The notes under the pieces: model-generated
What the model saw: only the letters and a program-made list of their open reading frames with translations
Told to the model about the DNA's origin: nothing
Databases searched by the model: none
Made by a program: the position numbers and the translations under genes
In this document: positions 31,242 through 55,166 of the stretch, piece after piece
How the letters are laid out: the number at the start of each line of letters is the position of its first letter
Position numbering within the stretch: position 1 is the first letter of the stretch
From: Sediminispirochaeta smaragdinae DSM 11293
Lineage (GTDB): Bacteria > Spirochaetota > Spirochaetia > DSM-16054 > Sediminispirochaetaceae
Direction of reading: 5' to 3'
Length of the DNA: 64,000 nucleotides
NCBI RefSeq assembly: GCF_000143985.1
Contig: NC_014364.1
Coordinates: 806,001-870,000 of the forward strand

Positions 31242-31242
31242 T

Positions 31243-31558: not shown

Positions 31559-31566
31559 GAAAAGAA

Positions 31567-31719: not shown

Positions 31720-31813
31720 ACCTATAAAACTCTGGTCATTGAACTTGTGACTCTTTCCCTTGTCCTCATTAAACGAAGAGTTGTATTGTAGCGATAAGAA
31801 TTTACGAGTGTCG

Positions 31814-32450: not shown

Positions 32451-32457
32451 CTTTTTC

Positions 32458-32486
32458 TTGACAGGAGAAATAAGCGGAGGTAAAAT
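32458..32486 (+). promoter_or_regulatory. Promoter of the CUT1/SorC/aldolase operon
   Basis: TTGACA (32458-32463), exactly 17 bases, TAAAAT (32481-32486). This is one of the best promoters in the window, and it is followed immediately by a double palindrome. Confidence 0.82.
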
Positions 32487-32497
32487 ATTATTTACAT

Positions 32498-32526
32498 GGT
32501 TACATATGTAAGTTACATATGTAACC
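32498..32526. promoter_or_regulatory. Double palindromic operator downstream of the promoter
   Basis: TTACATATGTAA occurs twice (32500-32511 and 32513-32524) with a single G between; with the flanking GG...CC the whole 29 bases form a palindrome. It lies at about +5 to +34. The SorC-type regulator encoded in the operon at 35673 is the likely binder, since SorC proteins act as tetramers on paired sites. Confidence 0.8.
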
Positions 32527-32555
32527 AAAAACACTCATAAGAAGGAGGAGCAAGA

Positions 32556-33830: not shown

Positions 33831-33848
33831 TAGGTAGGCATAATTACT

Positions 33849-33921
33849 AAAAGGATCCGCTCGTTGTATGATACAACATGTGGAGCATTTTTTTAAAAAG
33901 CAAGAAAGCGGGTCCTTTTTT
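33849..33921 (+). terminator. Attenuator-type stem-loop behind the binding-protein gene
   Basis: AAAAGGATCCGCT (33849-33861) pairs with AGCGGGTCCTTTT (33907-33919), 13 bp with one G-U pair, running into TTTTTT. A second perfect 7-bp hairpin (GTTGTAT / ATACAAC, 33863-33877) lies inside its loop. It sits between binding protein and permease and likely causes partial termination. Confidence 0.78.
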
Positions 33922-33945
33922 AGCAAGGATCGTAAGGAAATTTCT

Positions 33946-35648: not shown

Positions 35649-35672
35649 TAACTTGCGATTGAGGTTTGAACT

Positions 35673-36638: not shown

Positions 36639-36640
36639 CT

Positions 36641-39032: not shown

Positions 39033-39089
39033 AATTAACAATTTTAGTAGTGGAATTGATGGAATATTTTAACTATAAGGAAGGGTATT

Positions 39090-39947: not shown

Positions 39948-39963
39948 TTGATATACATATTTT

Positions 39964-40000
39964 GCCGGCGAAGATTTCTCTTTGCCGGCTTTTGTTTTTT
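39964..40000 (+). terminator. Rho-independent terminator of the CUT1/SorC/aldolase operon
   Basis: GCCGGCGAAGA / TCTTTGCCGGC, 11 bp with one G-U pair and a TTTC loop, followed directly by TTTTTGTTTTTT. It ends the plus-strand operon only; on the minus strand the hairpin is not followed by T residues. Confidence 0.92.
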
Positions 40001-40008
40001 CGTGGCTG

Positions 40009-40863
40009 TTACAAAATACCTCTGCTGCCGAATACCTCGATTTTTGTTGAAACAATAGAGGCGCATGCATCGACAATTGCAGTGGAAACCTTTCGGGGAT
40101 CTGAATCTTTGACCGCCAGGGAGGTGTTCTTCATTACATCAAAATAGCCATGCACCTTCAATTCGGTACCAACATTAATTTTCAGGATACCGAGGCCAAT
40201 CGCTTTTTTGAAATCCTCGTCGGAAACTCCAGTCCCACCATGAAGGACCAGCGGTATGGCCGTTCTTGTATGAATAGCCGTGATTCTTTCAAAGTCAAGT
40301 TTTGGGGGAAGCTTATAAAAACCGTGTACCGTCCCGACAGAGACGGCTAATGCATCTATATTCGTATCGTTTACAAATTTCTCTGCATCTTCGGGAACCG
40401 TAAACAGGGCCTCCCTCTCGGATACAACAATATTGTCTTCAACTCCACCAACATGCCCCAATTCTGCTTCCACGGAACATCCTGTTTTTGCGGCATAATC
40501 AACCGCGAGACGGGTAAGACGAACATTTTCATCGTAGTCTTTATCTGAAGCATCGATCATAACCGATGTGAATCCATGATCAATACACATAAATAACAAA
40601 TCCATATCGGTACAATGGTCAAGGTGAAGTACTATATCGGTTTCATATTCCTGGCTTAAAGCTCTTGCGGCGGATACGACAACGTCCAAGCCCATTACTT
40701 TAAGGGCTCCCATAGACGCCATGGCGATAACCGGACTTTTTTTGCTACTGGCAGCCTTGATAATGCCACGCAGATTTTCTAGTCCGAAAAAATTAAATGC
40801 ACCAACAGCACATTTATTTTTTCTAGCTTTTTCCAGAAAGTATTTCATTGTAACCAGAGACAT
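40009..40863 (-). CDS. Class II aldolase (fructose/tagatose-bisphosphate aldolase family)
   Basis: A 284-aa paralogue of the convergent aldolase at 39090. Zinc and catalytic residues are in HLDHCTD, GTVHGFY and VLHGGTGV. AGGAGG precedes the ATG at 40863; a longer frame to 40995 overlaps the ROK gene and is rejected. It is the last gene of the CUT2 operon. If the operon handles allose or allulose, the aldolase would act on a phosphorylated ketose. Confidence 0.92.
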   Translation of the reverse strand: MSLVTMKYFLEKARKNKCAVGAFNFFGLENLRGIIKAASSKKSPVIAMASMGALKVMGLDVVVSAARALSQEYETDIVLHLDHCTDMDLLFMCIDHGFTSVMIDASDKDYDENVRLTRLAVDYAAKTGCSVEAELGHVGGVEDNIVVSEREALFTVPEDAEKFVNDTNIDALAVSVGTVHGFYKLPPKLDFERITAIHTRTAIPLVLHGGTGVSDEDFKKAIGLGILKINVGTELKVHGYFDVMKNTSLAVKDSDPRKVSTAIVDACASIVSTKIEVFGSRGIL

Positions 40864-40891
40864 ATATCCTCCTGAGCAATCTTTTCTTTGT

Positions 40892-41839
40892 CTATATCTT
40901 CTTTTCGGTAGCTGCTCTTTCCTTAAATATAGAAACGCCCCCATGAAACCCGGCCATATCACCTCGTTCGGCCCACGATATGATACAGTTTTCATTAATG
41001 GAGGTCGTACATGCTTGTCTTTTTACAAATTCTTCCAGATAGCCTTTGGGGTAACATTCCATAGCGGCAATTCCCCCTCCTATAATTACATGAGTCGGCT
41101 CGATTATTGTTATTGCGGTGGTGACCAACAAAGCCTCGTTATCAACAAATTCCTTTAAGCGTTTTCCCGCAATGGAGTCCTCTCCCCAAAGTTGAAAAAC
41201 TTTCGATATGTGGATATGTGCATCTTCACTGATTTCTTCCAAAACACGACCGTTTACATACGCTTCAGCGCAACCATGCCTGCCACAAACACATTTTTTT
41301 CCGTTAAGACGGAATGGGATATGTCCCAATTCCAATCCGTTACGATATAGTCTACAGGCTTTATCATGTAGCAAAACATCAGCACCTATACCGGTTCCGA
41401 AAAATATCCCGAGAAGAACCCAGTTATCTTCCAATGTTTTTCCGGCTTTCTCTCCATGGAGCAGAAGCTTTGTGTCGTGGTCAACATAAACAGGAATCCC
41501 GATTTTTACTCGCAACTCACTTGCAATTTTGCGTCCATTCAGTGAAGTAATATTATTACATTGGATTATATAGTCCTTATCTTCATCAATAATTGCAGGC
41601 ACGCCAATAATAACCGCAGCAGGGTGTATGCCGTTCCTTTCTGTATATTGGTTTAATAGCCCGCGGAGAATTTCTATGGGGTCAGTTTCCTGCAACAAAT
41701 TACTGCTATATTCCTCAAAAGCGTAAGGCACTTCCTTTTCTGATACTTCAATAGAGGCGATCCTAATCCGAGTTCCTCCGATATCCATAACAATCAGACA
41801 CTGCCCTTGTATGCTAGCCGCGAAGTCCTCATCAGTCAT
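40892..41839 (-). CDS. ROK-family sugar kinase
   Basis: A 315-aa kinase with the ATP-binding DIGGTRIR, the ExGH motif (LELGHIPF) and the zinc-binding CVCGRHGCAE, all intact. The ATG at 41839 gives the usual ROK start and overlaps the end of the P-loop kinase gene by 8 bases. Together with the epimerase and the CUT2 transporter it resembles the D-allose (als) gene set of enteric bacteria, where a ROK kinase (AlsK) phosphorylates allose. The identity of the sugar here is an inference. Confidence 0.92.
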   Translation of the reverse strand: MTDEDFAASIQGQCLIVMDIGGTRIRIASIEVSEKEVPYAFEEYSSNLLQETDPIEILRGLLNQYTERNGIHPAAVIIGVPAIIDEDKDYIIQCNNITSLNGRKIASELRVKIGIPVYVDHDTKLLLHGEKAGKTLEDNWVLLGIFFGTGIGADVLLHDKACRLYRNGLELGHIPFRLNGKKCVCGRHGCAEAYVNGRVLEEISEDAHIHISKVFQLWGEDSIAGKRLKEFVDNEALLVTTAITIIEPTHVIIGGGIAAMECYPKGYLEEFVKRQACTTSINENCIISWAERGDMAGFHGGVSIFKERAATEKKI

Positions 41840-42353
41840 GCAGGTACACCGAGACCTTGTCAACCAAGTCATCTATGGTATCGGGACCGTCCGTAACAAG
41901 CGTAAGATGAGGGACGGCCAAAGGTTCCCAGCTACTTTGGATCTTTTTATATAAATCGTGATCCCTGTTCTTTGCGAGATGAACACCTTTCCCCTTCGAA
42001 AGTCTCGTGATGGCGGTCCCTTCGCTGCACGTACATTCTATGAACTTGCAAGGTGTTTGCATTTCCCGTGCCCTATCCTGGACCATTTCCACTTGGTATC
42101 TCTTTGAAAAAGGCCGACCGTCAAGAAGCACAACTAACTCACTATCTTTTTCAAGCAAGTACTTTGCCGCCTGCAATATGAGTTCTATACAAAGATCATC
42201 TTGCGCCGAAGTGAAATCCGTTAGTTTGCCGGGAAATATCGCTTCCCGCACAATATCCTTATCAAAGCATACATACGACGGATTTCTTTTTATTAATGAT
42301 TTAGCAAGAAAGCTCTTGCCTGCCCCCGGTAGGCCCGCCAAAACAACAATCAT
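41832..42353 (-). CDS. P-loop kinase (AAA_33-type small-molecule kinase)
   Basis: A 173-aa protein with Walker A GLPGAGKS (residues 7-14), a CFDKDIVRE segment and a VVLLDGRPF Walker B-like strand, resembling gluconate, APS or polynucleotide-type small kinases. It sits between the epimerase and the ROK kinase, so the operon encodes two kinases, which fits formation of a sugar bisphosphate before the aldolase step. Its substrate cannot be read from sequence. Confidence 0.85.
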   Translation of the reverse strand: MIVVLAGLPGAGKSFLAKSLIKRNPSYVCFDKDIVREAIFPGKLTDFTSAQDDLCIELILQAAKYLLEKDSELVVLLDGRPFSKRYQVEMVQDRAREMQTPCKFIECTCSEGTAITRLSKGKGVHLAKNRDHDLYKKIQSSWEPLAVPHLTLVTDGPDTIDDLVDKVSVYLHD

Positions 42354-42372
42354 TTTCTTCCTTTCCAGAATA

Positions 42373-43065
42373 TTAGTTTAATGTATGCAACCAGCTGACA
42401 GTATCAGTTAGGTTTTTACTGTTAAAAACCAAAGAGCCCGGAGTTATCATATCGGCCCCGGCCTCACGCAGTAAAGGCACGGTATGTTCCCTAATACCCC
42501 CATCAACCGAAAGGATAATTTTATTTTCCAGTCCATGAGCCTGTATCATAGCCTTAATACCCTTAACGCGGTCAGGAGTGTTCTTTTCCATACTCACGCC
42601 CTTAATGCCGATTTTCGTACCCATCAACAGGATTAAATCCAGATCATCCAGATATTTTTCCAACAGCATAATATCTGATTCAACACAGATAGATAAGCCT
42701 ACATGAATACACTTTTTTTTCAAATATGCAATTATTTCGCCGACCTTCTTTTCCCCTAACTCCAAATGTACCGTAATAAAATCGGACCCTGATTCAATAA
42801 ATGCATCTACATGCTTGATAGGATCCTCCATCATTAAATGAGTATGAAGAGGGATGTCCGTTTTCATATTTATTGCATGAATGAGATCAGGAAAAAAGAG
42901 TAAACCAGGCACAAAGTGAGCATCTGAAACATCTAAATGATATACATCTGCATAATTCTTAGTCTCATTAATACTCTTTTCAAGGTTCACCAAATTGCCG
43001 GACCACAAGGATACATCTAATAACATCCTGGACTGTTTTTTTGTATATAAATCATCAAGCTGCAT
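42373..43065 (-). CDS. Ribulose/allulose-phosphate 3-epimerase family protein
   Basis: A 230-aa TIM-barrel epimerase. The family residues are visible as HLDVSDAHFVP (metal His and catalytic Asp), THLMMEDP, and SVDGGI (second Asp). The ATG at 43065 with AGGTG upstream gives a normal length; the longer frame starting at a TTG (43152) crosses the intercistronic hairpin. In a sugar operon with a ROK kinase it most resembles D-allulose-6-phosphate 3-epimerase (AlsE) in role, though a pentose phosphate is also possible. Confidence 0.88.
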   Translation of the reverse strand: MQLDDLYTKKQSRMLLDVSLWSGNLVNLEKSINETKNYADVYHLDVSDAHFVPGLLFFPDLIHAINMKTDIPLHTHLMMEDPIKHVDAFIESGSDFITVHLELGEKKVGEIIAYLKKKCIHVGLSICVESDIMLLEKYLDDLDLILLMGTKIGIKGVSMEKNTPDRVKGIKAMIQAHGLENKIILSVDGGIREHTVPLLREAGADMITPGSLVFNSKNLTDTVSWLHTLN

Positions 43066-43110
43066 TACACACCTGCCATATTTCGTATATGTCCCTTTTC
43101 CATCTTTCAT

Positions 43111-43140
43111 TGTGGTAAATATTTTACAATACTTACCACA
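43111..43140 (-). promoter_or_regulatory. Intercistronic stem-loop behind the CUT2 binding-protein gene
   Basis: TGTGGTAA / TTACCACA, continued by TATT / AATA after one mismatch, with a 4-base loop. It starts 13 bases after the binding-protein stop codon. No T-run follows. Confidence 0.75.
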
Positions 43141-43153
43141 ATGGTCAAACAAA

Positions 43154-44110
43154 CTACTTGTTCAGGAAGTCGTCCACATTATCCTTTGTAACAAGTTCAA
43201 AAGGAATCAGCGTTTTCTTCTCATAAGCCTGTCCTGAAGCTATCGCATACGCAACTTCAATGCTCGTTGCCCCCTGAGCTTTTCCATTCTGGAAGACCGT
43301 TGCGTCTAATTCGCCATTTTGTATGCTCAACAAGGCATCCTGAATAGCATCGACACCAATAATAACAATCTCATCTTTTCTTCCGGCATTAATAACGGCA
43401 TTAAGGGCACCCATAGCCATATTATCATTCTCTGCTGCAATGGCACTGATTTCGGGGTATTTCTGCAACCAGTCTTCGGTTATTCTCATAGCTTCATCCC
43501 GCTGCCATTTTGCCGTCAAAGATTCGAGGATGGTTAAATGTGGTTCTTTGTAGACAGTATTTTTTAAACCTTCATCTCGGCCCATCTGAGAAGTGTTACC
43601 TATATCTCCTTCCAGCTGAAGGACATTTCCAGATGCAACGCCCTTTCCTCCCAGCCTTTCTATAATGTAATTTCCCATGATCTCCCCGGCGTCTACATCA
43701 TCGGAACAGACAATTGCAGAGGCCTCATCTGCATTAACCGTTTGTGCATTAACAATGACGAGTGGGATACCGGCTTCCTTGCATTTCGTCACAATCGGAG
43801 CGCAACCATTAGCATCTGTTGTGCTCATGACAATAACATCTACACCCATGGCAATCAGATCGTCAGATTCGTTCAGCTGCTTCTGAACATCTAGTTCTGC
43901 GTCGAACTGAAAATAATTAATAATCTTTCCGCTTGCCTTTAATTCCTTGAGAACATTCTCCTGAGCCTCGTTTAAGATAATCTGATATTGATCAGAACGA
44001 CTTTTCTGCAAGATACCAATTCTGATACCATCGTCTTCCGATTGACCTGCACCGAATACACTCACTGCGATGAGTGATAATGCGGCAGCAAAAAGCATCT
44101 TTCGTCTCAT
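43154..44110 (-). CDS. CUT2 sugar ABC transporter substrate-binding protein
   Basis: A 318-aa RbsB/AlsB-type periplasmic binding protein. The signal peptide ends SVFGAGQSE, the spirochaete-type motif. The ribose-binding fold is recognisable (MSTTDANGCAPIVTKCKEAGIP, AENDNMAMGAL, VGVDAIQDAL-like region). It follows the permease gene by 73 bases. Confidence 0.93.
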   Translation of the reverse strand: MRRKMLFAAALSLIAVSVFGAGQSEDDGIRIGILQKSRSDQYQIILNEAQENVLKELKASGKIINYFQFDAELDVQKQLNESDDLIAMGVDVIVMSTTDANGCAPIVTKCKEAGIPLVIVNAQTVNADEASAIVCSDDVDAGEIMGNYIIERLGGKGVASGNVLQLEGDIGNTSQMGRDEGLKNTVYKEPHLTILESLTAKWQRDEAMRITEDWLQKYPEISAIAAENDNMAMGALNAVINAGRKDEIVIIGVDAIQDALLSIQNGELDATVFQNGKAQGATSIEVAYAIASGQAYEKKTLIPFELVTKDNVDDFLNK

Positions 44111-44183
44111 TACAATCCCCCTAAAATTTCTATTAATAAAATCGCCTATATCTTTTATCCAAGATGCAAGTGCGATTCTATTT

Positions 44184-45152
44184 TCATTTTTTATTGGTCA
44201 GCTTCAAATCCATCATCACCGTCAAAAGAATAATGAAGCCCTTTACTATCTGTTGATAAAAGGACGATACACCCATCAGATTCATGCCATTATTTATTAA
44301 GCCAATAATAAGAACCCCAATAACCGTACCTTCCACACTGCCGATCCCGCCCATGAAACTGACACCACCGATGACGGAAGCCGCTATTGCATCGGTTTCA
44401 TATCCAACGCCCATGGCCGGTTGCCCTGCATTTACACGCGAAGTTAATAACACGCCGGCAATACCGGTACAGATGCCCATTATTGTGTACGTGGCTAATT
44501 TTATGAGCTGAACATTAACACCCGATGCAATGGCAGCATGTTCATTTCCGCCGGTGGCATAGAGGTACCTTCCGTATTTCATACGGCTGAGAAGGAAATA
44601 ACAAATTATTGCAACGGAAGCAAAAACCAAAATTGAATATGGAATTTTTCCAAATAAACGACCTTGACCTATTTGCTTGAATACAGGATCGGTTAATATG
44701 TAGGATTTTCCGTTGCTAATGACATATGCGAGGCCCCTGATAATTAACTGACTAGCTATTGTTACCACAAATGGGAACATGTTGTATTTGGCGATGAAAA
44801 ATCCATTAAAAACACCGACAAGTCCACATGCCATAACGGCAAGTACTACCGCAAGAAAACAATTACCTCCGTGAGTCAGAACTGCACCAACAACCACCGA
44901 AGCCAAGGCGATGATTGATCCTACCGAAATATCGATCCCGGCACAGATAATTACAAAGGTCATGCCAATTGCGATGATGCCGTTTATACTTACTTGATTA
45001 AGAACATTTATAGTATTCTGAACGGTCCTGAAAGTGGGACTGGCAATAAACAAAAACGCTATCATCGAAAACAGAATGATGGAAATCCCGTATAGCCTTG
45101 AATGGCCAAGTCGTTTCATGTTGTCGAGTAACACACTTTTTTTCCCAAGCAT
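44184..45152 (-). CDS. CUT2 sugar ABC transporter permease
   Basis: A 322-aa RbsC/AlsC-type permease with about ten hydrophobic helices and the conserved CAGIDISVGSIIALA and GVSFMGGIGSVEGTVIG regions. TGGAGG precedes the ATG; 3 bases separate it from the ATPase stop codon. Confidence 0.93.
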   Translation of the reverse strand: MLGKKSVLLDNMKRLGHSRLYGISIILFSMIAFLFIASPTFRTVQNTINVLNQVSINGIIAIGMTFVIICAGIDISVGSIIALASVVVGAVLTHGGNCFLAVVLAVMACGLVGVFNGFFIAKYNMFPFVVTIASQLIIRGLAYVISNGKSYILTDPVFKQIGQGRLFGKIPYSILVFASVAIICYFLLSRMKYGRYLYATGGNEHAAIASGVNVQLIKLATYTIMGICTGIAGVLLTSRVNAGQPAMGVGYETDAIAASVIGGVSFMGGIGSVEGTVIGVLIIGLINNGMNLMGVSSFYQQIVKGFIILLTVMMDLKLTNKK

Positions 45153-45155
45153 GTA

Positions 45156-46655
45156 TTAGCCTCCAAATGATTTATCTAAGATATCTTCTTGGGTTACTTT
45201 TCCTTCAACAATATCTTCTCGCTTGAATTCTCCCGTAATCCTCCCTTCATGCATTACCAAGATTCTATTGCTAAGCCACATTACTTCTGACAACTCAGAC
45301 GATATGAGAATTATTGCCATTCCGGCATGCGTGAATTCGGAAATGAGTTTATATATTTCATCTTTTGCACCAACATCTATTCCTCTTGTTGGTTCATCAA
45401 GAATTATTAACTTAGGAGCAATCATTAACCATTTTGCCAGGATGACTTTTTGTTGATTTCCTCCGCTTAGATTTTTCGTTGCAACGCCTACATGAGGCGC
45501 CTTTACCGATAGTTGTCTTGTTTTTTCCTTAACGTCTTTTTGTTCCTTTCTGTGATCTATGTATGGAGAATGTTTGATTCTGAGGCTGGGCAGGCTGGTA
45601 TTCTCAAGAATACTTCGACAAAGGACCAGGCCATACTCACGTCGATCTTCGGTGACCATGGCTATTCCACGTTTTATGGCATCGCTTGTATTCGCTATTT
45701 TTATTTTTTTCCCATACCAGAAAACCTCACCGGAATCTAAGGGATCAAGCCCAAAAATGGATTTCATCGTCTCACTTCTTCCCGCTCCCACAAGACCTGA
45801 AAATCCCAAGATCTCACCTTCTCGGACACGAAAAGAAACGTCGTCAAAAAAGCCCTTGCGCCTTAACCCTTTAACGGATAAAACTTCCGTGCCAAAAGTT
45901 TCACGCCCTATTTTTCCTTTATATTGGACCACACGACCGACCATCATCTGAATGATCTCGTCACGAGTAATGTTCTTCACCGGCCTCGTAGCAATATAGT
46001 GTCCGTCACGAAAAACCGTAAGCCTGTCACAAATTTCATGTATCTCTTCCAGTCGGTGAGAGATATAAATAATGCTAATTCCACGGGATTTCAGATCCCT
46101 GATCGTTTCAAATAACTGTTTCGTTTCTCCCAAATCAAGAGATGAAGTTGGTTCATCCATAATTACTACTTTTGAACTGCATGAAACGGCCTTCGCTATT
46201 TCGATCATTTGCATTTGGGCAATTGTCAGTTCCTTCATTTTTTGTTTGGGCGAAAAGCTAAGATTAAATTTCTTCAAAAGCTCTCTGGTCATACTTTCCT
46301 GGGTGTTCGAATCGGTAAATATCCCATGTTTCATCGGCTCTCTATGAAGAAAAATATTTTCCGCAATGGTCATTTCCATGATTGGATTGAGTTCTTGAGG
46401 AATCATGCTTATTCCGCTGTTGAGTGCTTCGGCCGGAGTCATAAAATGTATCTTTTCGCCGTCAAACCAGATCTCGCCGTCGTCAGGCTTATATATGCCG
46501 ACAATTATTTTCATTAAGGTTGATTTTCCGGCACCATTTTCTCCCACCAAAGCGTGAACTTCGCCAGGCAGTATTTGTAGATCGACTTCACTAAGAGCTA
46601 TTGTTCCGGGGAATCTTTTTGTAATTTTTCTCAACTCCAAGAGGTAATCACTCAT
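45156..46655 (-). CDS. CUT2 sugar ABC transporter ATP-binding protein (two ATPase domains)
   Basis: A 499-aa RbsA/AlsA-type double ATPase. The N-terminal domain has Walker A GENGAGKST and Walker B VVIMDEPTSSLD; the C-terminal domain has a degenerate Walker A (GLVGAGRSE), signature LSGGNQQK and Walker B LIILDEPTRGID, as usual for the CUT2 type. First gene of the operon. Confidence 0.95.
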   Translation of the reverse strand: MSDYLLELRKITKRFPGTIALSEVDLQILPGEVHALVGENGAGKSTLMKIIVGIYKPDDGEIWFDGEKIHFMTPAEALNSGISMIPQELNPIMEMTIAENIFLHREPMKHGIFTDSNTQESMTRELLKKFNLSFSPKQKMKELTIAQMQMIEIAKAVSCSSKVVIMDEPTSSLDLGETKQLFETIRDLKSRGISIIYISHRLEEIHEICDRLTVFRDGHYIATRPVKNITRDEIIQMMVGRVVQYKGKIGRETFGTEVLSVKGLRRKGFFDDVSFRVREGEILGFSGLVGAGRSETMKSIFGLDPLDSGEVFWYGKKIKIANTSDAIKRGIAMVTEDRREYGLVLCRSILENTSLPSLRIKHSPYIDHRKEQKDVKEKTRQLSVKAPHVGVATKNLSGGNQQKVILAKWLMIAPKLIILDEPTRGIDVGAKDEIYKLISEFTHAGMAIILISSELSEVMWLSNRILVMHEGRITGEFKREDIVEGKVTQEDILDKSFGG

Positions 46656-46704
46656 TTTCAGTCCTAATCGAAAAATTATTTTGGTTTATCTGCTAAGTTA
46701 GGTC

Positions 46705-46733
46705 ATAATAACGCCGTATATTACAGATGTCAA
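46705..46733 (-). promoter_or_regulatory. Promoter of the CUT2/epimerase/kinase operon
   Basis: On the minus strand TTGACA (46728-46733), 17 bases, TATTAT (46705-46710). Near-consensus; 50 bases before the ATPase start. Confidence 0.8.
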
Positions 46734-46765
46734 TAATTTTTACATTTATTTTTATCGACTTCGAT

Positions 46766-46784
46766 ATATTATTGGCATATTATT
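46766..46784. promoter_or_regulatory. Direct-repeat candidate operator between divergent promoters
   Basis: ATATTATT occurs twice in the same orientation with GGC between (period 11 bases, one helical turn). It lies between the -35 boxes of the two divergent promoters. DeoR-family regulators often bind direct repeats, so the adjacent DeoR protein is the candidate binder. Confidence 0.5.
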
Positions 46785-46791
46785 AATCAAC

Positions 46792-46821
46792 TTGACAGTA
46801 ATTTGAAATCTTCACTACACT
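46792..46821 (+). promoter_or_regulatory. Promoter of the DeoR-family gene
   Basis: TTGACA (46792-46797), 18 bases, TACACT (46816-46821). The predicted start of transcription, near 46828, practically coincides with the ATG at 46830, so the mRNA would be leaderless. Confidence 0.65.
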
Positions 46822-46829
46822 TATGCTAT

Positions 46830-47627
46830 ATGAAAGCAAAGTCAAAGACAGATATCAGAAGGCAAAAGATCAGGCAGATGCTCATTTCCAACAACGTTGT
46901 ATCGATAAACGAATTCTGCCAGTTACTCAAATGCAGTGAATCGACTATCAGAAATGATCTTAAATACTTAGATGCGAAGGGACTGATTACCAGAACATAC
47001 GGCGGTGCCGTTTTAAATGGCAACACCAGGTACAATGTGGCAATGAATACGCGTTACGGCATGAACGTAGCTGCAAAAGAGGAGATTGCCGACTATATCG
47101 TGCATAATGTTCTTGTTGATGATTCGATCATCACCCTTGACAGCGGGACAACGATGGTCGGAATCGCAAAAAAGATTCTTGAAGCTTCGCTTAAACTAAC
47201 GGTGATAACCACCTCGCTTGCCATTGCTGAAGTATTGAACAGAACCGCAAACATAGATCTCTATCTTACGGGTGGAAGACTCAATCACATAAAAGAGGCC
47301 TTTATCGATCAGAGTGCTATTGAGTTTGTCTCTTCAATGTGTTCGGATTTGTATCTTTTTTCTTGTGATGGTGTAGATATCGAGAAAGGATTTACCATTG
47401 GAGACCCCGAAGAAGTTGCAATCAAGAAAGCAATGTCACAATTTTCGAAAAGAACCATCTGTGCCGTTGACAGCTCAAAGATAGATCAAATTAAATTAAA
47501 GAAAATTTTTGATATCAATGATATCGAAATGATAATAACCGATACTGCAGTGAGTGAAAAGAAAATCGAAAAATTGAGATCGGCGGGGGCAGATATCATC
47601 AAGGCGACAAAAAAAACGCAAGCATAA
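46830..47627 (+). CDS. DeoR-family transcriptional regulator
   Basis: A 265-aa regulator with an N-terminal HTH (ISINEFCQLLKCSESTIRNDLKYL, then TRTYGGAV) and a C-terminal sugar-phosphate sensor domain (LDSGTTMVGIA, TGGRLN, CDGVD). The ATG at 46830 has no Shine-Dalgarno and lies at the predicted transcription start; an upstream TTG at 46803 would fall inside the promoter. It is divergent from the CUT2 operon and probably controls it, with a phosphorylated sugar as inducer. Confidence 0.9.
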   Translation: MKAKSKTDIRRQKIRQMLISNNVVSINEFCQLLKCSESTIRNDLKYLDAKGLITRTYGGAVLNGNTRYNVAMNTRYGMNVAAKEEIADYIVHNVLVDDSIITLDSGTTMVGIAKKILEASLKLTVITTSLAIAEVLNRTANIDLYLTGGRLNHIKEAFIDQSAIEFVSSMCSDLYLFSCDGVDIEKGFTIGDPEEVAIKKAMSQFSKRTICAVDSSKIDQIKLKKIFDINDIEMIITDTAVSEKKIEKLRSAGADIIKATKKTQA

Positions 47628-47801
47628 TGTTAGATAAGGACGTGCTGAAAATGGGCAGGAATTAGCAGAAAAGAATTTAGGGTTAACTTTTTCCACGTAC
47701 ATATAAAGGGTATACTAATTTGTTACAAAATATACCACATTGAGTATGCTTGCCTGACAGAGCCAGAAGGTGGCACATAGATTGTGAATACGTATGATAA
47801 C

Positions 47802-47839
47802 AAAAAAAAGCATCAGGGAATCAATAAGATTCCTGATGC
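47802..47839 (-). terminator. Rho-independent terminator of the KARI/TctABC/dehydratase operon
   Basis: Read on the minus strand, GCATCAGGAATC pairs with GATTCCCTGATGC (one bulged base, 5-base loop) and runs straight into TTTTTTTT. It lies 74 bases after the dehydratase stop codon. The rest of the 285-bp gap to 47628 holds nothing recognisable. Confidence 0.9.
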
Positions 47840-47912
47840 TGAAGATTCGCAAACCTTCCACGGTAATAAAAAGATACATGTTTTCAGAATTGCATCTTCA
47901 CTTACTTTACTG

Positions 47913-49103
47913 CTATGTTATTATCATTTTCTCTGACGCCTTTATTGTTTCTTCTGTAAGTTCCTGACCTATCCCAGGTAAACAAGGTGTTTCATAATAA
48001 CCATCTTTCGGCTGATAATCATATTTGCAGCTATTAATATTATGTGGTAAAAGTGCTCCGGAATGATGCTCATGAATAACAAAATTAGGTATTACGGCTT
48101 CCAGTTGCAATGCTGCTGCTTTTGCGATTGGGCCACCGCAAATATGAACCTGAACTCCTATGTCATATACATTGGCCATATCACAAATCTTCTTACCTTC
48201 AGTAATCCCTCCGACTAATCCAAGGTCCGGCTGGATAATGGAAAGAGATCTTTTTTCAAAGAATGGTCTGTAGCCCCATCTACTATATATTCTTTCCCCG
48301 CTTGCAAGAGGAATCTTCACATTATTTGCTATCTCTTTCATGAGATCAGCATTCAAAGGCATTGTGGGTTCTTCATAATAAAAGCAGTTAAACTGCTCCA
48401 ATTCCCTACCCAGCTGGATTGCGGAATTTGTATCTGTAAGTGAATGGAGCTCTATTATCAGATCCATATTCTTACCACCTGCTTCTCTCATTGCTCTTAC
48501 TCTGTCGACCGCAGTAGAAATTTGCTTGTTTTCCAGAAGGCCGGTTGTTTTCCATTTCATCCAGTTGCCATCCAGGTCAAAACCAATCGGATCGACCTTG
48601 ACACAATCATATCCGTCATCCAGAGCTTTTTGCGTTGCCCAGGCATAATCATCCGGAGTAATCATCGCCTTGCTTTCCGTGCCCCATCCGAATTGCAGCT
48701 GACTTGCATAGGCTCTTAACTTTGTATTTGTTTTACCTCCCAGCAGTTGATAGACCGGAACGTTCAAGGCCTTTCCCCTTATGTCCCATAGAGCAATATC
48801 GATTCCACTAATACCGCCAAACACAACAGTACCGCCGCCCATTCCCCAGAAAGTGCTTCTAAATATTTTTGACCATATTTCTTCATTATTCATTGGGTCC
48901 ATTCCAATGATAACCTTAGCGAAATCAGCTGCCATGCCAAATCCGGCATCCCCTGCATTTCCATATGCTAGACCGATTTCCCCGAAACCGGTTATTCCTT
49001 CATCGGTATGTACCATGACAACAATAGGATTCCATGGCACGCCTTCAACCCTTTTGCTAACGCCAGTATTTACTTTTACAACCTCAATGCTTGTAATTTT
49101 CAC
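47913..49103 (-). CDS. Enolase-superfamily acid-sugar dehydratase (galactonate dehydratase-like)
   Basis: A 396-aa mandelate racemase/muconate lactonising enzyme-type protein. Metal ligands appear as Glu in IELHS, Glu in YYEEP and Glu in ASGER; the ELHS histidine and the VHICGGPIAKAA histidine correspond to the acid/base residues of D-galactonate dehydratase (DFHGR and PHCPLGPIA), with Glu instead of Asp as first metal ligand. It starts at a GTG overlapping the upstream stop codon (GTGA), with AAGGAG 9 bases before. Expected reaction: loss of water from an aldonic acid to give a 2-keto-3-deoxy acid. Last gene of the operon. Confidence 0.88.
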   Translation of the reverse strand: MKITSIEVVKVNTGVSKRVEGVPWNPIVVMVHTDEGITGFGEIGLAYGNAGDAGFGMAADFAKVIIGMDPMNNEEIWSKIFRSTFWGMGGGTVVFGGISGIDIALWDIRGKALNVPVYQLLGGKTNTKLRAYASQLQFGWGTESKAMITPDDYAWATQKALDDGYDCVKVDPIGFDLDGNWMKWKTTGLLENKQISTAVDRVRAMREAGGKNMDLIIELHSLTDTNSAIQLGRELEQFNCFYYEEPTMPLNADLMKEIANNVKIPLASGERIYSRWGYRPFFEKRSLSIIQPDLGLVGGITEGKKICDMANVYDIGVQVHICGGPIAKAAALQLEAVIPNFVIHEHHSGALLPHNINSCKYDYQPKDGYYETPCLPGIGQELTEETIKASEKMIIT

Positions 49104-50227
49104 TCGAAGACTCTCCTTAAAAAATCATTTAATAAAAAAGTCAAACGCTCAACATCAATATCTCCAGGGATCAGATGGGCATATTCAAGAGCACATGCTT
49201 TTTCGGCTATGTCCCTCATTTCGGCAGGCGATATATGTATGTCAGGAATACTTGATAACAGATTCATCCTGTTAATCATGTTCTCAACTTCGGCAATAAG
49301 ATCTTTTGTTGATGGATAACTACAAAAACAAGCCAATTCCGTCAAACAATCAGGTTCGTTCGAAACTGCATATCTCATTACCGGTACCAGACTTAATGCA
49401 CAAGCTATCCCATGTGGGACATGAAAATAATCGGCAAAAGGAAAACTAAGCGCATGTATAAGAGTAGTCCGGACCTGGCCAAACGCCCAGCCCCCAAGCA
49501 TGGATGCATTGCTCAATGAAGAGCGCGCGGTCTTGTTTTGAGGGTCTTCATAGCAACTATAAAGATTTTTTAGGACATCCCGGCAGGCATACATTGCAGC
49601 ACCTCGACATAGCGAATTGGAACTGGTATTCCAGTATGCTTCAAGAGCATGGGTAAAAGCGTCAATACCTGTTGCCGCCGTTACCGAAGAAGGAACAGAA
49701 TACGTAAGTTCAGGATCTACAATGGCAGTATCACAGTAAAAGTAAGGGGTCCGGTATCCTGTTTTTCTGTTTTTTTCTGTATCGGTATAAACACCGACGC
49801 ATGTACACTCGCTTCCCGTGCCAGCCGTAGTAGGAATAAGAATAAGTTTTTTTCGTCCTTTTACGACCTGCTTTCCATATAGATAATCTTCAAAACTCCC
49901 ATCAGCAGATGAAATACAAGCTACAGCCTTGGCGGTATCCAGAGAACTGCCTCCGCCAAGACCAATACACAAATCGATTTTATTTTCTTTAGCTATTCTC
50001 AAAGCCTTGTTCACAGTATGAACCGAAGGATTCGGCTCAACATCAGAGAAAACAGAGATATCACTATTTTTCAAATTATCCGCTATTTTTTTTCGTAGCC
50101 CCATCTGTTCAATAACCGGATCACAGATAAAAAGAATCCTATCTTTCGGAGAGCAAAATTGATCAATACGTTTTACCATGCCTTCACCGAATTGGATGTT
50201 AACGGGCATATATATAGAATATTCCAC
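49100..50227 (-). CDS. Iron-containing (group III) alcohol dehydrogenase
   Basis: A 375-aa NAD(P)- and metal-dependent alcohol dehydrogenase. The nucleotide loop is GLGGGSSLDTAKA; the metal ligands are Asp and His in GIDAFTHALE, His in IHALSFPF and His in VPHGIACA. The start is a GTG with CAGGAG upstream. In this operon it could reduce an aldehyde or 2-keto intermediate, or oxidise an imported hydroxy acid. Confidence 0.92.
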   Translation of the reverse strand: MEYSIYMPVNIQFGEGMVKRIDQFCSPKDRILFICDPVIEQMGLRKKIADNLKNSDISVFSDVEPNPSVHTVNKALRIAKENKIDLCIGLGGGSSLDTAKAVACISSADGSFEDYLYGKQVVKGRKKLILIPTTAGTGSECTCVGVYTDTEKNRKTGYRTPYFYCDTAIVDPELTYSVPSSVTAATGIDAFTHALEAYWNTSSNSLCRGAAMYACRDVLKNLYSCYEDPQNKTARSSLSNASMLGGWAFGQVRTTLIHALSFPFADYFHVPHGIACALSLVPVMRYAVSNEPDCLTELACFCSYPSTKDLIAEVENMINRMNLLSSIPDIHISPAEMRDIAEKACALEYAHLIPGDIDVERLTFLLNDFLRRVFE

Positions 50228-50288
50228 AGTGGGTCTCCTGTAATCTTTTTAATTCTTGAGGAAGATAATCAAATGTTTTTGTCAACTT

Positions 50289-51782
50289 TTACTTTTTTAC
50301 GTTCTTCTCACAAAAATTCGTATTCTTTGTTTTCCTCAGACCTATCATTAAAAGAATACAGAGTCCATAGAAAAACAAAGCAACAGGACTTTGAAAAAAC
50401 GGAATGATACTGCCTTCGGTTAGTATCATTGCCCGTCTTAAATTTTGCTCAAACATAGGCGCTAAGACAAGAGCCAGAACCATAGGCGCAATAGGTACCT
50501 TCACACTTTTCATCAAGAAAGCAAAGATTCCCAGGACTATTGCTATTTTGATATCAAAGATGCTGTTGTTTATTGCGTAACAACCTATGAGCGAAAGGAT
50601 CATTACAATAGTAGCCAGGAGGTGTTTAGGTATATGCAATACCTTTGCAAAAAATCTCACGCCTATCAGCCCGAGAAGAACCATAACGATGTTCGAAAAA
50701 AAGAAAGCAATGAATATCATGTACGCAGTATCAGCATGCTTAAGGAAAAAATTAGGCCCCGGGGTCAATCCTTGTATTATCAAGCCTCCGAGTAATACGG
50801 CGGTAACAGGGTCTCCCGGAATTCCTAACGACAGCAAAGGTATCATGGCACCACCTGGGACTGCATTATTTGCTGACTCACTGGCAATGATTCCTTCCGC
50901 ACATCCGGTGCCGAATTTGTCCTGATTTTTTGAAGCACGCTTTGCCTCTCCATACGAAATCCATCCTCCGGTAGAGCTTCCTACCGCAGGTACGGCACCT
51001 ATAAATGTTCCGATAAGAGAACCTTTTATGAGTGTTTTTATATTGCGGAGAAACACTTCAGGTTTTGCATATGTAACCTTTTTTATTGGTTTTATATCAT
51101 CTGTTGATGTCTGTATATTTGTTATCATGACAAAAACTTCTGATATGGCAAAAAGACCGATAACGGCAGGTATTAACGAGATCCCCTGAAAAAGATGGTA
51201 ATTTCCGAAGTCAAATCTTGGCAGTCCAAGAATCGGATCCATACCGATAAAGGAGAGGACGAATCCCATCAATGCCGCAATTATACTCTTAAATATGGAG
51301 TCGCTTGACAAAAAGCCAATAAGAACAACCCCGATAAGTATAAGTGAAAAATACTCTATAGGGCCGAATGCAAGTGCTATTTTGCCCAGTATTGGGGATA
51401 AAAAAGTCAGAACAATAACACTTACGATTCCGCCGAAACCCGAGGCTATTACAGCAATTGATAATGCCTTGCCAGGCTCTCCTCGCTTGGCCATTGGATA
51501 TCCGTCAAGGGTTGTTGCTGCGGATGCCGGAGTGCCTGGTGTATTTATCAGAATTGCCGTTATGGAGCCTCCATAGATCCCCCCACAATACACAGCAATA
51601 AGCATAGGCAGCCCATAGTGTGCCGGCATGAAGAATGTAAGGGGCATCAGCAATGCTACACCCATCACTGCGGTAAGCCCCGGAAGTGCTCCGAAAACGA
51701 TACCTACAAAGGTACCGAAGAAAATAAATGCGAAGGTTTTTATATTAAAAACTAATAACAATGCTTGTAAGAAATCACTCAT
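50289..51782 (-). CDS. tctA: Tripartite tricarboxylate transporter large permease TctA
   Basis: A 497-aa membrane protein with about twelve helices and the two conserved regions GALPGLTAVMGVALLMPLTF (near residue 30) and GIPGDPVTAVLLGG, plus the GTPASAATTLDGYPM segment. It is the main transport subunit and is encoded after tctC and tctB. A second, partial TctA starts the window; the two share the EAKR...ESANNA/EAANNA region. Confidence 0.96.
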   Translation of the reverse strand: MSDFLQALLLVFNIKTFAFIFFGTFVGIVFGALPGLTAVMGVALLMPLTFFMPAHYGLPMLIAVYCGGIYGGSITAILINTPGTPASAATTLDGYPMAKRGEPGKALSIAVIASGFGGIVSVIVLTFLSPILGKIALAFGPIEYFSLILIGVVLIGFLSSDSIFKSIIAALMGFVLSFIGMDPILGLPRFDFGNYHLFQGISLIPAVIGLFAISEVFVMITNIQTSTDDIKPIKKVTYAKPEVFLRNIKTLIKGSLIGTFIGAVPAVGSSTGGWISYGEAKRASKNQDKFGTGCAEGIIASESANNAVPGGAMIPLLSLGIPGDPVTAVLLGGLIIQGLTPGPNFFLKHADTAYMIFIAFFFSNIVMVLLGLIGVRFFAKVLHIPKHLLATIVMILSLIGCYAINNSIFDIKIAIVLGIFAFLMKSVKVPIAPMVLALVLAPMFEQNLRRAMILTEGSIIPFFQSPVALFFYGLCILLMIGLRKTKNTNFCEKNVKK

Positions 51783-51800
51783 TTTATCAACCTCCTTATC

Positions 51801-52274
51801 TCATGGCAGAGGTATTTTAAATAGATACCCGAAGACAGCATAACAAAAGAGTGTTATCAGTAATGAAGTGATGACACTCTTATGCCATCTAGAATTTGAT
51901 AGTATTCTAAGCAGTAAAAAAGTAAAAACAGATACGGAAATTAAAAATCCAGCTGGTTTTAGTATAAAAGGAAATACTATCAGAATGACTATAGTTAAAA
52001 GCAGCTTTTTATTTCTATCTATTGTTTCAAGGACGGATATAGAATTATTGCTTTTTTCTATTCTTCTCGTTCTTGCTTTAATAATATTTGTCGTTATTAA
52101 AAGGATACTATCCAGAATCAGGAGTATCGATATAATGATCGGAAGGAATTTTATTCCGGGGTCAGTTCCTGCCACTACGCCATTGTAGTTTTCCAATAGT
52201 AAAGACTGTATGAGAAGGAAAATTCCCAGGGAAAAAAAACCTATCCCGGTTACCAGATCTTTCTTATCTTCCAC
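51801..52274 (-). CDS. tctB: Tripartite tricarboxylate transporter small permease TctB
   Basis: A 157-aa protein with four predicted transmembrane helices, the size and layout of TctB. It lies between tctC and tctA, 18 bases before the latter. Sequence conservation in this family is low, so the call rests mainly on topology and position. Confidence 0.9.
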   Translation of the reverse strand: MEDKKDLVTGIGFFSLGIFLLIQSLLLENYNGVVAGTDPGIKFLPIIISILLILDSILLITTNIIKARTRRIEKSNNSISVLETIDRNKKLLLTIVILIVFPFILKPAGFLISVSVFTFLLLRILSNSRWHKSVITSLLITLFCYAVFGYLFKIPLP

Positions 52275-52302
52275 AATAACATCCTTATTGGTTTATATTA
52301 TG

Positions 52303-52336
52303 ACGGTTGTTGTCATGTTATCCAGACAACAACCGT
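52303..52336 (-). promoter_or_regulatory. Intercistronic stem-loop behind the TctC gene
   Basis: A perfect 12-bp stem ACGGTTGTTGTC / GACAACAACCGT with a 10-base loop starts 12 bases after the tctC stop codon. No T-run follows on the minus strand. Confidence 0.8.
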
Positions 52337-52348
52337 ACTCAGCTTGGT

Positions 52349-53323
52349 TTACTTGCCTAAACCGGCTGCTTGTACAGCCTTACCAAAACTATCACGCATT
52401 TGATCATCAAGTTTTTTAAGATCTTCAGCTGGAGCCCAAACAATTTCCTGCTTTGTTCTTTCCATAACTTCAATGAATTTCTCATCCTGAGACATTTGTC
52501 TGAAAGCCTCCGCGAGGATATCTATTCTTTCCTGAGGGGTACCTTTGGGAACATAAAAGCCTTTATAGGCAGAATTTACTATATCTATCCCTTCTTCGAT
52601 AAAGGTAGGGATTTCCGGAAAATAACTTGACCGTTTTAATGATGGTATTGCCAGATACTTCAAAGAGCCTGCCTCCACATATTCCATCGTTTCTGCAGGA
52701 TTTTGAATTATGACATCCACATCGCCCTTTAACAATGCGGGAACTGTTTCTGCTCCACCGTCATACGGCACTTTTCCTATTTCACCACCAGCTTCCATAC
52801 CAATCATTGTAAAAACCAATGAAAGAGAGTTTGCTGCACCCAATGTTCCGGCTTTTATCTTTCCCGGATTGTTTTTTATTGCCGTAAGCAAATCCCCAAG
52901 TGAGTTGTATGGAGAATCTGACCTGACAGTAAGCGCCATAGGGCTGTCGGTCATGGCGCATACCTGTTGAAATGCATCGTATTCATAATCTACAAGCCCT
53001 AAATGCGGTGCCAAAATATATGGAGACCATGTTCCATACCATAATGTATAACCGTCGTTTTTTGTGTCGTAGGCAAACTCGTTTGCTGCAACCAATGCTC
53101 CTCCACCCGGTTTATTAACGATTAAGAGCGGCTGTCCCAAGTACTTTTCCGCTACCGCCGACAGTGCTCTGGCATTTGTATCGGCGGTTCCACCGGCAGC
53201 GAAAGGAACTAAAATGGTAACGGGTTTTGAAGGAAATGGCTTTTCCTGATCCCCATTTGCAAAAGTGCTGCTGAGCCCCACAATGATAAAAAGACTAAGC
53301 GAAAATAGTAGAATTTTTTTCAT
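52349..53323 (-). CDS. tctC: Tripartite tricarboxylate transporter substrate-binding protein TctC
   Basis: A 324-aa binding protein of the Bug/TctC family with the signature FPSKPVTILVPFAAGGTADTNAR after a signal peptide ending STFANGDQE. TctC proteins bind carboxylates, often sugar acids or aromatic acids, through two water-bridged carboxylate contacts. Its start overlaps the upstream reductoisomerase-like gene (ATGA). Confidence 0.94.
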   Translation of the reverse strand: MKKILLFSLSLFIIVGLSSTFANGDQEKPFPSKPVTILVPFAAGGTADTNARALSAVAEKYLGQPLLIVNKPGGGALVAANEFAYDTKNDGYTLWYGTWSPYILAPHLGLVDYEYDAFQQVCAMTDSPMALTVRSDSPYNSLGDLLTAIKNNPGKIKAGTLGAANSLSLVFTMIGMEAGGEIGKVPYDGGAETVPALLKGDVDVIIQNPAETMEYVEAGSLKYLAIPSLKRSSYFPEIPTFIEEGIDIVNSAYKGFYVPKGTPQERIDILAEAFRQMSQDEKFIEVMERTKQEIVWAPAEDLKKLDDQMRDSFGKAVQAAGLGK

Positions 53324-54333
53324 TTCTCATCCCCCTTTCTTTTGTTTGCGTTTAATATTTTTAACAAATCCTGCTCGGATTTAATAAAAGGATGCTTTAG
53401 ATTGTCCTTCCACAATCGATTGAAAACAGGATATCCTGTTAACTGTTCCGTTTTCCATTCTTTGCTGAATTCGCCTGATTTTATATTCTCAACAATACTT
53501 CTGAGTAAGGCTCTGGATGCATCACTGGCAGCGTATTTCCCTCTTGTCTGGTGTCCGTACTGACTTGTTGTGGAATGGTATCGAAGCTGTCCCCAAATCC
53601 CAACTTCCTGAGCATTCCGTAAGGTTTCAATGCCTTCTCCGGAAAGATACAGTTCAAGCAATACTGCCTCGGGACTGAAACCGTATTCCTCAACAAGCAA
53701 CTCATAGGCCATTCTCAGATTATAGAGTTTGAATCCTCCCATGACCTGTTCGCCAAAAAGGTCTACAACGGCTTCTTCTTCAAAACTTGATTCAAATGCT
53801 CCGATCTTTGTTGTGCCTATCGCTTTTGCCAACGCAAGCATTATCGTCTTTGCTTTTCCGGTGGAATCCTGATGAACTGCTACCAGGCTCGGAAAACCTT
53901 CGCCACTAACAAAGCGGTCCCGAACTCCCTTTCCTATCATTCTTGGTGCAATGAGTACTATATCTACAGTTTCCGGCAGTTCGATAAAGCCAAAGTGCAC
54001 ATTGTATCCGCTTGCAAAATTGATTACATTGCCGTCCTCAATATATGGAGCAATGTCTTCCTCGTAAACTGAAGGCATAATTTCATCTGGAATCAAAAGA
54101 AACAAAATGTCTGCTCTTTTGCTTGCCTCTGAGATACTATACACGTCGAACCCATCTTTTTTCCCCTGTGTCCAGCTTGCTCCATCCTCAATGTTGCCGA
54201 CGATCACGTTAACTCCACTATCACGCATATTTAAGGCTTGAGAGCGACCTTGATTACCATATCCGATAACCGCAACCGTTTTGTTTTTTAATTCATCCAA
54301 ATTTGCATCATCATCAAAATAAGCCTTCGCCAA
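53320..54333 (-). CDS. Ketol-acid reductoisomerase homologue with altered active site
   Basis: A 337-aa class I KARI-like protein. The Rossmann motif is VIGYGNQG and the magnesium motif DLFGEQ is kept. However, the canonical APKGPGH region reads APRMIGKGVRD, and in the C-terminal domain the paired glutamates of ECLHE read ELYLS and the usual NTAEYG reads TTSQYG. It begins at a TTG with AGGAGG 7 bases upstream. It heads a catabolic operon with TctABC, an alcohol dehydrogenase and a dehydratase, not ilvBN or leu genes. A role in 2-keto or 3-keto hydroxy-acid reduction or rearrangement is inferred; branched-chain amino-acid synthesis is unlikely. Confidence 0.85.
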   Translation of the reverse strand: MAKAYFDDDANLDELKNKTVAVIGYGNQGRSQALNMRDSGVNVIVGNIEDGASWTQGKKDGFDVYSISEASKRADILFLLIPDEIMPSVYEEDIAPYIEDGNVINFASGYNVHFGFIELPETVDIVLIAPRMIGKGVRDRFVSGEGFPSLVAVHQDSTGKAKTIMLALAKAIGTTKIGAFESSFEEEAVVDLFGEQVMGGFKLYNLRMAYELLVEEYGFSPEAVLLELYLSGEGIETLRNAQEVGIWGQLRYHSTTSQYGHQTRGKYAASDASRALLRSIVENIKSGEFSKEWKTEQLTGYPVFNRLWKDNLKHPFIKSEQDLLKILNANKRKGDEK

Positions 54334-54361: not shown

Positions 54362-54391
54362 ATTCTAAACGCGGTTTTGTCGTGTTGTCAA
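54362..54391 (-). promoter_or_regulatory. Promoter of the KARI-like/TctABC operon
   Basis: On the minus strand TTGACA (54386-54391), 18 bases, TAGAAT (54362-54367). The palindrome at 54400-54419 lies directly upstream of the -35. Confidence 0.75.
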
Positions 54392-54399: not shown

Positions 54400-54419
54400 A
54401 AATTTCAAATTTGAAATTT
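54400..54419. promoter_or_regulatory. Palindromic operator in the divergent promoter region
   Basis: AAATTTCAAATTTGAAATTT is a perfect 20-bp palindrome; a further ATTTCAA unit on each side extends the pattern. It lies between the promoters of the KARI-like operon and the divergent GntR gene, and the GntR protein is the likely binder. Confidence 0.72.
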
Positions 54420-54429
54420 CAAGATGTTA

Positions 54430-54458
54430 TTGATTTTTTTCATCAATCAAGATTAAAT
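54430..54458 (+). promoter_or_regulatory. Promoter of the GntR gene
   Basis: TTGATT (54430-54435), 17 bases, TTAAAT (54453-54458). Transcription would start at about 54465, the ATG itself, so this mRNA also looks leaderless. Confidence 0.55.
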
Positions 54459-54464
54459 AACGTT

Positions 54465-55166
54465 ATGGAAAATCGATTTGAGAATAATGCTTATCCGTTA
54501 AAAAAGATGAACAAGGCAAATATGGTTTACGATATCCTTTATGAAGGAATCATTTCAGGGACATGGAAACCTGGTGACCGATTAAATGACGAAGAATTAT
54601 CACGACAATTTGGAACGAGCCGGAATTCGGTTAGGGAGGCTTTATCCAACCTGGTAAGAAACCACCTTGTAGAAAAAGAGCACTGGAAGGGTTATAGAGT
54701 AAGAAGTCCTCAATGGAAAGAAATAGAAGAAGCCATTGATATTAGAAAGTGCCTTGAACTATATACTATTGATAAAATGAGAAATTTATCTGATGATAAA
54801 ATTGATGAAGTTATAAAGCTATTGGAGAATCATTTCCAGGAAGCGGAAGAGAAGGTCAATACCAATCAAAATGAATATAAAAAAATCGACATGATGTTTC
54901 ACCAGATAATCTATAATTCTGTATCGGAATTCTGGCTTACTGATATTGTCGAAAACCTTCATGCAGTTGCCGATATACAAACAAATCGTCTTTCCGTTAG
55001 TGTCTATCAACATAAAGAAATTTACAAAAAGCTACTTGATAGAGATTTTGACGGTATGAAAAACAAGATGCAAGAACATATAGAATCATTCAAAAATCGT
55101 GCACAAAAAATATATCAATCTAACTTACAGACAAGTAAAGATGAAACCATGGAGAAAAAGGCGTAA
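54465..55166 (+). CDS. GntR-family regulator, FCD subfamily
   Basis: A 233-aa regulator with a winged HTH (LNDEELSRQFGTSRNSVREALSNL) and an FCD-type helical domain. The ATG at 54465 is taken; an upstream frame from 54411 would begin inside the operator palindrome. It has no clear Shine-Dalgarno. Divergent from the KARI-like operon, it is the natural local repressor, responding to an organic acid. Confidence 0.88.
   Translation: MENRFENNAYPLKKMNKANMVYDILYEGIISGTWKPGDRLNDEELSRQFGTSRNSVREALSNLVRNHLVEKEHWKGYRVRSPQWKEIEEAIDIRKCLELYTIDKMRNLSDDKIDEVIKLLENHFQEAEEKVNTNQNEYKKIDMMFHQIIYNSVSEFWLTDIVENLHAVADIQTNRLSVSVYQHKEIYKKLLDRDFDGMKNKMQEHIESFKNRAQKIYQSNLQTSKDETMEKKA

Follow-up and report, generated by a model that had tools for sequence, protein, structure and literature searches.

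A ketol-acid reductoisomerase paralogue in a probable acid-uptake operon of Sediminispirochaeta smaragdinae

The stretch of DNA analysed here (the window) covers 64,000 nucleotides of Sediminispirochaeta smaragdinae DSM 11293 (NC_014364.1, positions 806,001 to 870,000). Six of its genes form a minus-strand unit at 47913-54333, and the first of them encodes a homologue of ketol-acid reductoisomerase (KARI). On balance, we favour the view that this is a GntR-controlled operon serving to take up and degrade a small hydroxy-carboxylic acid, in which a KARI paralogue that has kept its two-Mg2+ NAD(P) site works outside valine and isoleucine synthesis. An earlier note on this DNA, made from the sequence alone, had described the six genes, and the Pfam matches listed below agree with it.

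53320-54333, minus strand: KARI-like gene that opens the unit, 337 aa (Pfam KARI_N 217 bits, KARI_C 103 bits)
52349-53323, minus strand: TctC, periplasmic solute-binding protein of the tripartite tricarboxylate transporter (Pfam TctC 174 bits)
51801-52274, minus strand: TctB, small membrane subunit (Pfam TctB 74 bits)
50289-51782, minus strand: TctA, large membrane subunit (Pfam TctA 504 bits)
49100-50227, minus strand: iron-type alcohol dehydrogenase (Pfam Fe-ADH 154 bits, C-terminal domain 116 bits)
47913-49103, minus strand: enolase-superfamily protein of the mandelate racemase subgroup, probable acid-sugar dehydratase (Pfam MR_MLE_C/N)
54411-55166, plus strand: divergent GntR-FCD gene, probable regulator of the unit (Pfam GntR and FCD)
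54362-54391, minus strand: sigma-70-like promoter TTGACA-18-TAGAAT upstream of the KARI-like gene, 11/12 consensus positions
54400-54419: AAATTTCAAATTTGAAATTT, a perfect palindrome of 20 bp lying immediately upstream of the -35 box; candidate operator for GntR
47801-47840, minus strand: Rho-independent terminator after the last gene, predicted from sequence and fold (hairpin with a loop of 5 and one bulge, then a run of 8 T)

The KARI-like protein and its clade

Pfam, AlphaFold and structure comparison agree that the KARI-like protein is, as modelled, a complete class I KARI fold. The predicted structure (pLDDT 95.1, pTM 0.89), built from an alignment that excluded rows from plasmid records, matches solved class I KARIs with Z scores of 33-40 over about 325 residues. 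Motifs were compared in a MAFFT alignment of 10 canonical KARI sequences and 92 KARI-like relatives. As noted earlier, DLFGEQ is unchanged and KGPGH is lost, the canonical APKGPGH reading APRMIGKG; FAHGF is replaced by FASGY, ECxHE by ELYLSGE and SxTAEYG by HSTTSQYG. The histidine of FAHGF and the lysine of KGPGH, found in 10/10 canonical rows, are replaced in the window protein by S108 and R131, and K130 gives way to arginine in 91/92 relatives. The window protein also carries the clade signature R131-M132, S231-x-E233 and H253-S254-x-T-S257.

The Mg2+ ligands in published class I KARI structures are D191, E195, E227 and E231 (PMC8615647, PMC5940873). Three of them, D191, E195 and E227, are identical in the KARI-like protein. 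The counterpart of canonical E231 in the alignment is E233, displaced by a two-residue insertion, and the helix of the predicted model is broken exactly at this insertion (231-232). D191, E195, E233 and S254 are invariant in 92/92 relatives and E227 is found in 89/92, and the fourth metal ligand is better read from this alignment as moved but retained as E233. The C-terminal ligand positions had been taken by eye for changed and the active site for rewritten; the alignment, together with the titles of solved relatives, led us to reject a lost metal site, and a broadly rewritten active site is not supported. At the substrate positions, also reported as changed, A254 has become a serine, a histidine is present at 253, and the substrate serine S254 is kept. 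Asp50 lies in the cofactor loop of the window protein and occurs in 90/92 relatives. KARIs that prefer NADH are recognised by acidic residues in this loop (PMC5940873), and in BurG Asn48 and Asp51 exclude NADP+ (PMC9359912); the loop of the KARI-like enzyme suggests NAD(H) use.

One scan of one-per-species genomes with a subfamily alignment gave 521 relatives, and the best 80 of these 521 are spread over many bacterial phyla and archaea. In an IQ-TREE quick tree, 91 KARI-like rows stand opposite the 10 canonical KARIs, which are the only rows on that side, across one branch (SH-aLRT 100), and the window protein is not grouped with canonical IlvC. This coverage of bacterial and archaeal phyla rules out a recent local oddity, and the clade is both large and ancient. 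Inside the clade stands Sso-KARI of Sulfolobus solfataricus, for which structures 6JCV, 6JCZ, 6JD1 and 6JD2 ("putative KARI 2") are titled as containing Mg2+, NADH/NADPH and CPD, a KARI inhibitor. Because Sso-KARI was solved with these ligands, the clade probably keeps KARI-type chemistry. Sso-KARI is 48-49% identical to the window protein and shares with it FASGYN, APRMVG and LLEFYASGE; it differs in its archaeal origin, in DLMSEH where the window protein has DLFGEQ, and in being described as a KARI.

Compared with canonical IlvC, the window protein shares the fold with its Rossmann and knot domains, D191, E195, E227, a fourth glutamate, S254 and DLFGEQ, whereas it belongs to a separate clade and has FASGY, RMIGKG, the two-residue insertion before the fourth glutamate, H253, S257 and Asp50. 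Its gene, unlike ilvC genes, is not linked to ilvB or ilvD and lies in an acid-uptake context. A known precedent for a repurposed KARI is BurG, a cyclopropanol synthase (PDB 7PCC and others), in which the fold was likewise recruited to another pathway in genomes that retain ilvC; it is also NAD+-dependent with an acidic cofactor-loop residue (PMC9359912). BurG is only 33-34% identical to the window protein and is biosynthetic, serving malleicyprol assembly. A gonyol/malleicyprol-type cluster was not found around the window gene, as the operon adds an importer, an alcohol dehydrogenase and a dehydratase only. More generally, KARIs are promiscuous reductases (PMC4353338).

The window genome does not combine intact KARI residues with the lack of another ilvC, a combination that the earlier note had named as counting against its reading: a separate ordinary ilvC lies between ilvB-like and ilvD genes, and the earlier description, an enzyme of the KARI family within an operon that imports an acid and looks catabolic, stands. 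Among 20 carrier genomes tested, a second KARI_N match at full strength was present in 15; these matches were judged canonical by score and position and not by motifs, and six of them are no more than about 3 kb away from acetolactate synthase. The KARI-like protein is the only KARI in the other five (5/20). One of them, the spirochaete G226 (99% complete), has the KARI-like gene and one IlvD/EDD-family gene, but no other KARI, acetolactate synthase or TPP_enzyme_N match. Two metagenome-assembled genomes (MAGs) of unstated completeness, G309 and G311, have the KARI-like gene only and no acetolactate synthase over the cut-off. Given the separate ilvC, the second KARIs and G226, the KARI-like enzyme is not an ordinary biosynthetic KARI. 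Clade members are usually annotated "ilvC", and metabolic reconstructions that equate this label with branched-chain prototrophy are affected.

Operon structure, control and conservation

The genes overlap by 4 bp at the KARI-like/TctC and alcohol dehydrogenase/enolase-superfamily junctions, and the remaining gaps are 74, 18 and 61 bp. The promoter-like sequence is strong and was the top of 25 sites in a promoter scan. The regulator and terminator that had been attributed to the unit were both recovered, the GntR-FCD gene upstream on the other strand and the hairpin with its T-run after the last gene; the hairpin folds at -19.9 kcal/mol (60-bp stretch), and its bulge caused a simple terminator scan to overlook it. 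The GntR-FCD gene is listed with a TTG start, and its real start is perhaps slightly downstream. The palindrome may serve as the GntR operator.

The sister species G298, the only other genome of the genus compared, keeps the whole unit together with the GntR gene and the regulator gene that follows it, at 92-98% protein identity, the GntR-FCD protein being 97% identical and in the same position. Codon differences are mostly synonymous, with 37 synonymous and 11 nonsynonymous in the KARI-like gene. The intergenic operator region is nearly identical, with the promoter kept and the palindrome unchanged, and the terminator is also kept. The colinear match stops nearby at 47785, which makes the operon a clear evolutionary unit.

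The adjoining 16.4 kb of the window (31411-47785: sugar ABC transporters, kinases, class II aldolases and a DeoR regulator), which abut the operon terminator, are missing at the matching place in G298, whose corresponding flanks are separated by about 1.1 kb of different DNA. G298 also has a second KARI-like gene (L110, contig 11) that neighbours genes for a GntP permease and a GntR-FCD protein, a copy that the window genome lacks.

TctA, TctB and TctC are all present and compose a full tripartite tricarboxylate transporter. Solved relatives of TctC are generic TctC/Bug and terephthalate-binding proteins only and indicate no specific ligand; one spirochaete genome (G000) has nine TctC-family proteins. 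The enolase-superfamily protein reaches 254 bits against the NCBIfam galactonate dehydratase model NF010624 (curated cut-off 311) and by this score is related to D-galactonate dehydratase (DgoD) without being an equivalog, so that the label "galactonate-dehydratase-like" given earlier is loose. Its best solved relatives, 2o56 and 2gl5, are named "putative" only, and nothing direct on these dehydratases was found in the open-access literature searched. The iron alcohol dehydrogenase falls under every NCBIfam equivalog cut-off, its best solved relative (6jko) being named a methanol dehydrogenase. Neither an aldolase nor a kinase gene lies within the six-gene unit. By eye, there are three DapA-family (2-keto-3-deoxy-acid aldolase-like) genes elsewhere in the window (15057-16961 and 24425-25360), any of which could supply the missing aldolase.

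Proposed pathway, neighbouring genes and alternatives

KARI converts 2-hydroxy-3-oxo acids to 2,3-dihydroxy acids, and the latter are the substrate class of mandelate-racemase-subgroup dehydratases. Because the KARI product falls in this class, a chain of dehydrogenase, KARI-like enzyme and dehydratase would resemble the ilvC-ilvD pair acting on another substrate. Since the unit holds an importer and a regulator, the acid is probably taken up from outside, and TctABC would import it. The KARI-like enzyme would turn a 2-hydroxy-3-oxo acid into a 2,3-dihydroxy acid or the reverse, whether or not a group migrates; the iron dehydrogenase would form or consume the keto partner, allowing the two redox steps to balance; and the enolase-superfamily enzyme would remove water from the 2,3-dihydroxy acid and yield a 2-keto-3-deoxy acid, a dehydration of the type that IlvD carries out following KARI in the classical route. 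Enzymes encoded elsewhere would perform the final cleavage. The structure and conservation of the operon, the clade membership, the retained residues of the metal site and the separation from branched-chain synthesis are established here; we infer NAD(H) use, the catabolic direction and the class of reaction, whereas the substrate and the order of steps are guesses. Acid-sugar catabolic operons with tripartite ATP-independent periplasmic (TRAP) or Tct transporters likewise unite an importer, a mandelate-racemase-subgroup dehydratase, a dehydrogenase and a GntR regulator; the window unit differs from them by including a KARI-like enzyme and by having no aldolase or kinase.

Gene neighbours across the clade were tested at 57 non-redundant loci (+/-3 genes) against 226 positions elsewhere in the same loci; the p-values are uncorrected over 13 categories and the labels, obtained with a crude gene caller and a limited reference set, are lower bounds. 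Enrichment near KARI-like genes was seen for GntR regulators, at 10/57 loci against 12/226 positions (p=0.005); for acid permeases, at 8/57 against 11/226 (p=0.02); and for short-chain dehydrogenases/reductases (SDRs), at 8/57 against 10/226 (p=0.014). The clearest recurring layout, KARI-like gene with GntP and GntR-FCD, was seen in all five inspected GntP loci, once with an SDR; its carriers are three spirochaetes (including the second G298 copy) and two Lachnospiraceae. TRAP systems take the place of GntP in Rhodobacterales and relatives, and acid-sugar dehydratases accompany KARI-like genes not only in the window but also in haloarchaea, one Bacillaceae species and one Trueperaceae MAG. The clade points to KARI chemistry used in acid catabolism.

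Several points weigh against the favoured reading, the limits of the neighbour test among them. Sugar-acid (MLE) dehydratases are not enriched near KARI-like genes (3/57 vs 9/226, p=0.45), which gives no support to a dehydratase as their constant partner and leaves the order suggested earlier, import followed by dehydration to a 2-keto-3-deoxy acid and then reduction or rearrangement, without backing. Glycerate kinase is not enriched either (near 1/57 loci, p about 0.5), and a glycerate-kinase link is ruled out as a general rule. The earlier note had proposed looking for KARI homologues adjoining TctABC; among the inspected loci there were none besides the window and G298, so that TctABC is not a constant partner. 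Gene contexts within the clade are very diverse, and members may differ in substrate. The MAGs G310 and G312 have acetolactate synthase but the KARI-like protein as their only KARI, through incompleteness or because it acts as a biosynthetic stand-in. Acetolactate is reportedly turned over by Sso-KARI. This enzyme is cited as a KARI in PMC8615647, and a biosynthetic role may hold in places. No assay of any KARI-like enzyme from such an operon was found in the open-access literature, and nothing direct was found in the open-access literature searched on a catabolic role for the clade, on a catabolic KARI or on a KARI with LarA.

A bolder version of the favoured reading, which we consider rather unlikely, is that dehydrogenase, KARI-like enzyme and dehydratase make up an undescribed catabolic route, in which a KARI-type skeleton migration would turn a sugar acid of branched or unusual structure into an ordinary 2-keto-3-deoxy acid at no net redox cost, and that catabolic KARI chemistry may be clade-wide under "ilvC" annotations.

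It is unlikely that the KARI-like enzyme is instead a hydroxypyruvate or tartronate-semialdehyde reductase that forms glycerate as sugar acids reach the end of their degradation. Like acetolactate, tartronate semialdehyde belongs to the 2-hydroxy-3-oxo acids, but it has no alkyl groups. At one locus (L077), a GarK-type glycerate kinase gene follows directly downstream, with LarA and UxaA-GarD-type genes nearby; a MOFRL glycerate kinase gene lies near the KARI-like gene on a Sulfitobacter plasmid, and in Haladaptatus (L009) it has genes for an HpcH-type aldolase and an enolase beside it. A BurG structure contains hydroxypyruvate-enol, and glycerate is racemised by some LarA homologues (PMC11770544). 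Such a role is at odds with the single glycerate-kinase locus among the 57 and with a window unit lacking both glycerate kinase and aldolase.

The reverse direction, in which an imported C3-branched 2,3-dihydroxy acid would be oxidised and isomerised with NAD+ by the KARI-like enzyme, also seems unlikely to us. D-apionate oxidoisomerase is the model for such a reaction, and the NAD(H)-like loop residues would suit it, as would the loci where KARI-like, GntP and GntR genes occur without another obvious pathway enzyme (L010, L081, L090, L110). KARI equilibrium, however, lies toward reduction, and the unit holds no kinase or aldolase for such a product.

That the protein is a second, branched-chain KARI sitting in the operon by chance is quite improbable: metal site and fold are retained and Sso-KARI, of the same clade, was studied as a KARI (PMC8615647), but the canonical ilvC is located with biosynthetic genes, clade members occur in genomes without acetolactate synthase, branched-chain biosynthetic genes lie beside only 1/57 KARI-like loci, without enrichment, and the operon carries an importer and a GntR gene.

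Some further contexts were noted. LarA-type (nickel racemase) genes adjoin or lie near KARI-like genes in several unrelated lineages (L014, L017, L066, L074, L077, L078, L087 and L093). In Acidimicrobiia (L025-L049), nucleoside-hydrolase-like, zinc alcohol dehydrogenase, KARI-like, ABC importer and MFS genes recur together, another possible catabolic use. In Jordarchaeia/Sigynarchaeota MAGs (L044, L045, L046, L057), a gene for an EF-Tu-type GTPase comes after the KARI-like gene, as does a SepSecS gene on contigs that extend far enough. Elsewhere in the window, 28788-31349 encodes an 853-aa protein, conserved in G298, that has two tyrosine-phosphatase-like halves repeating each other, both containing HCTEGKDRAG, and by eye an apparent C-terminal LysM domain.

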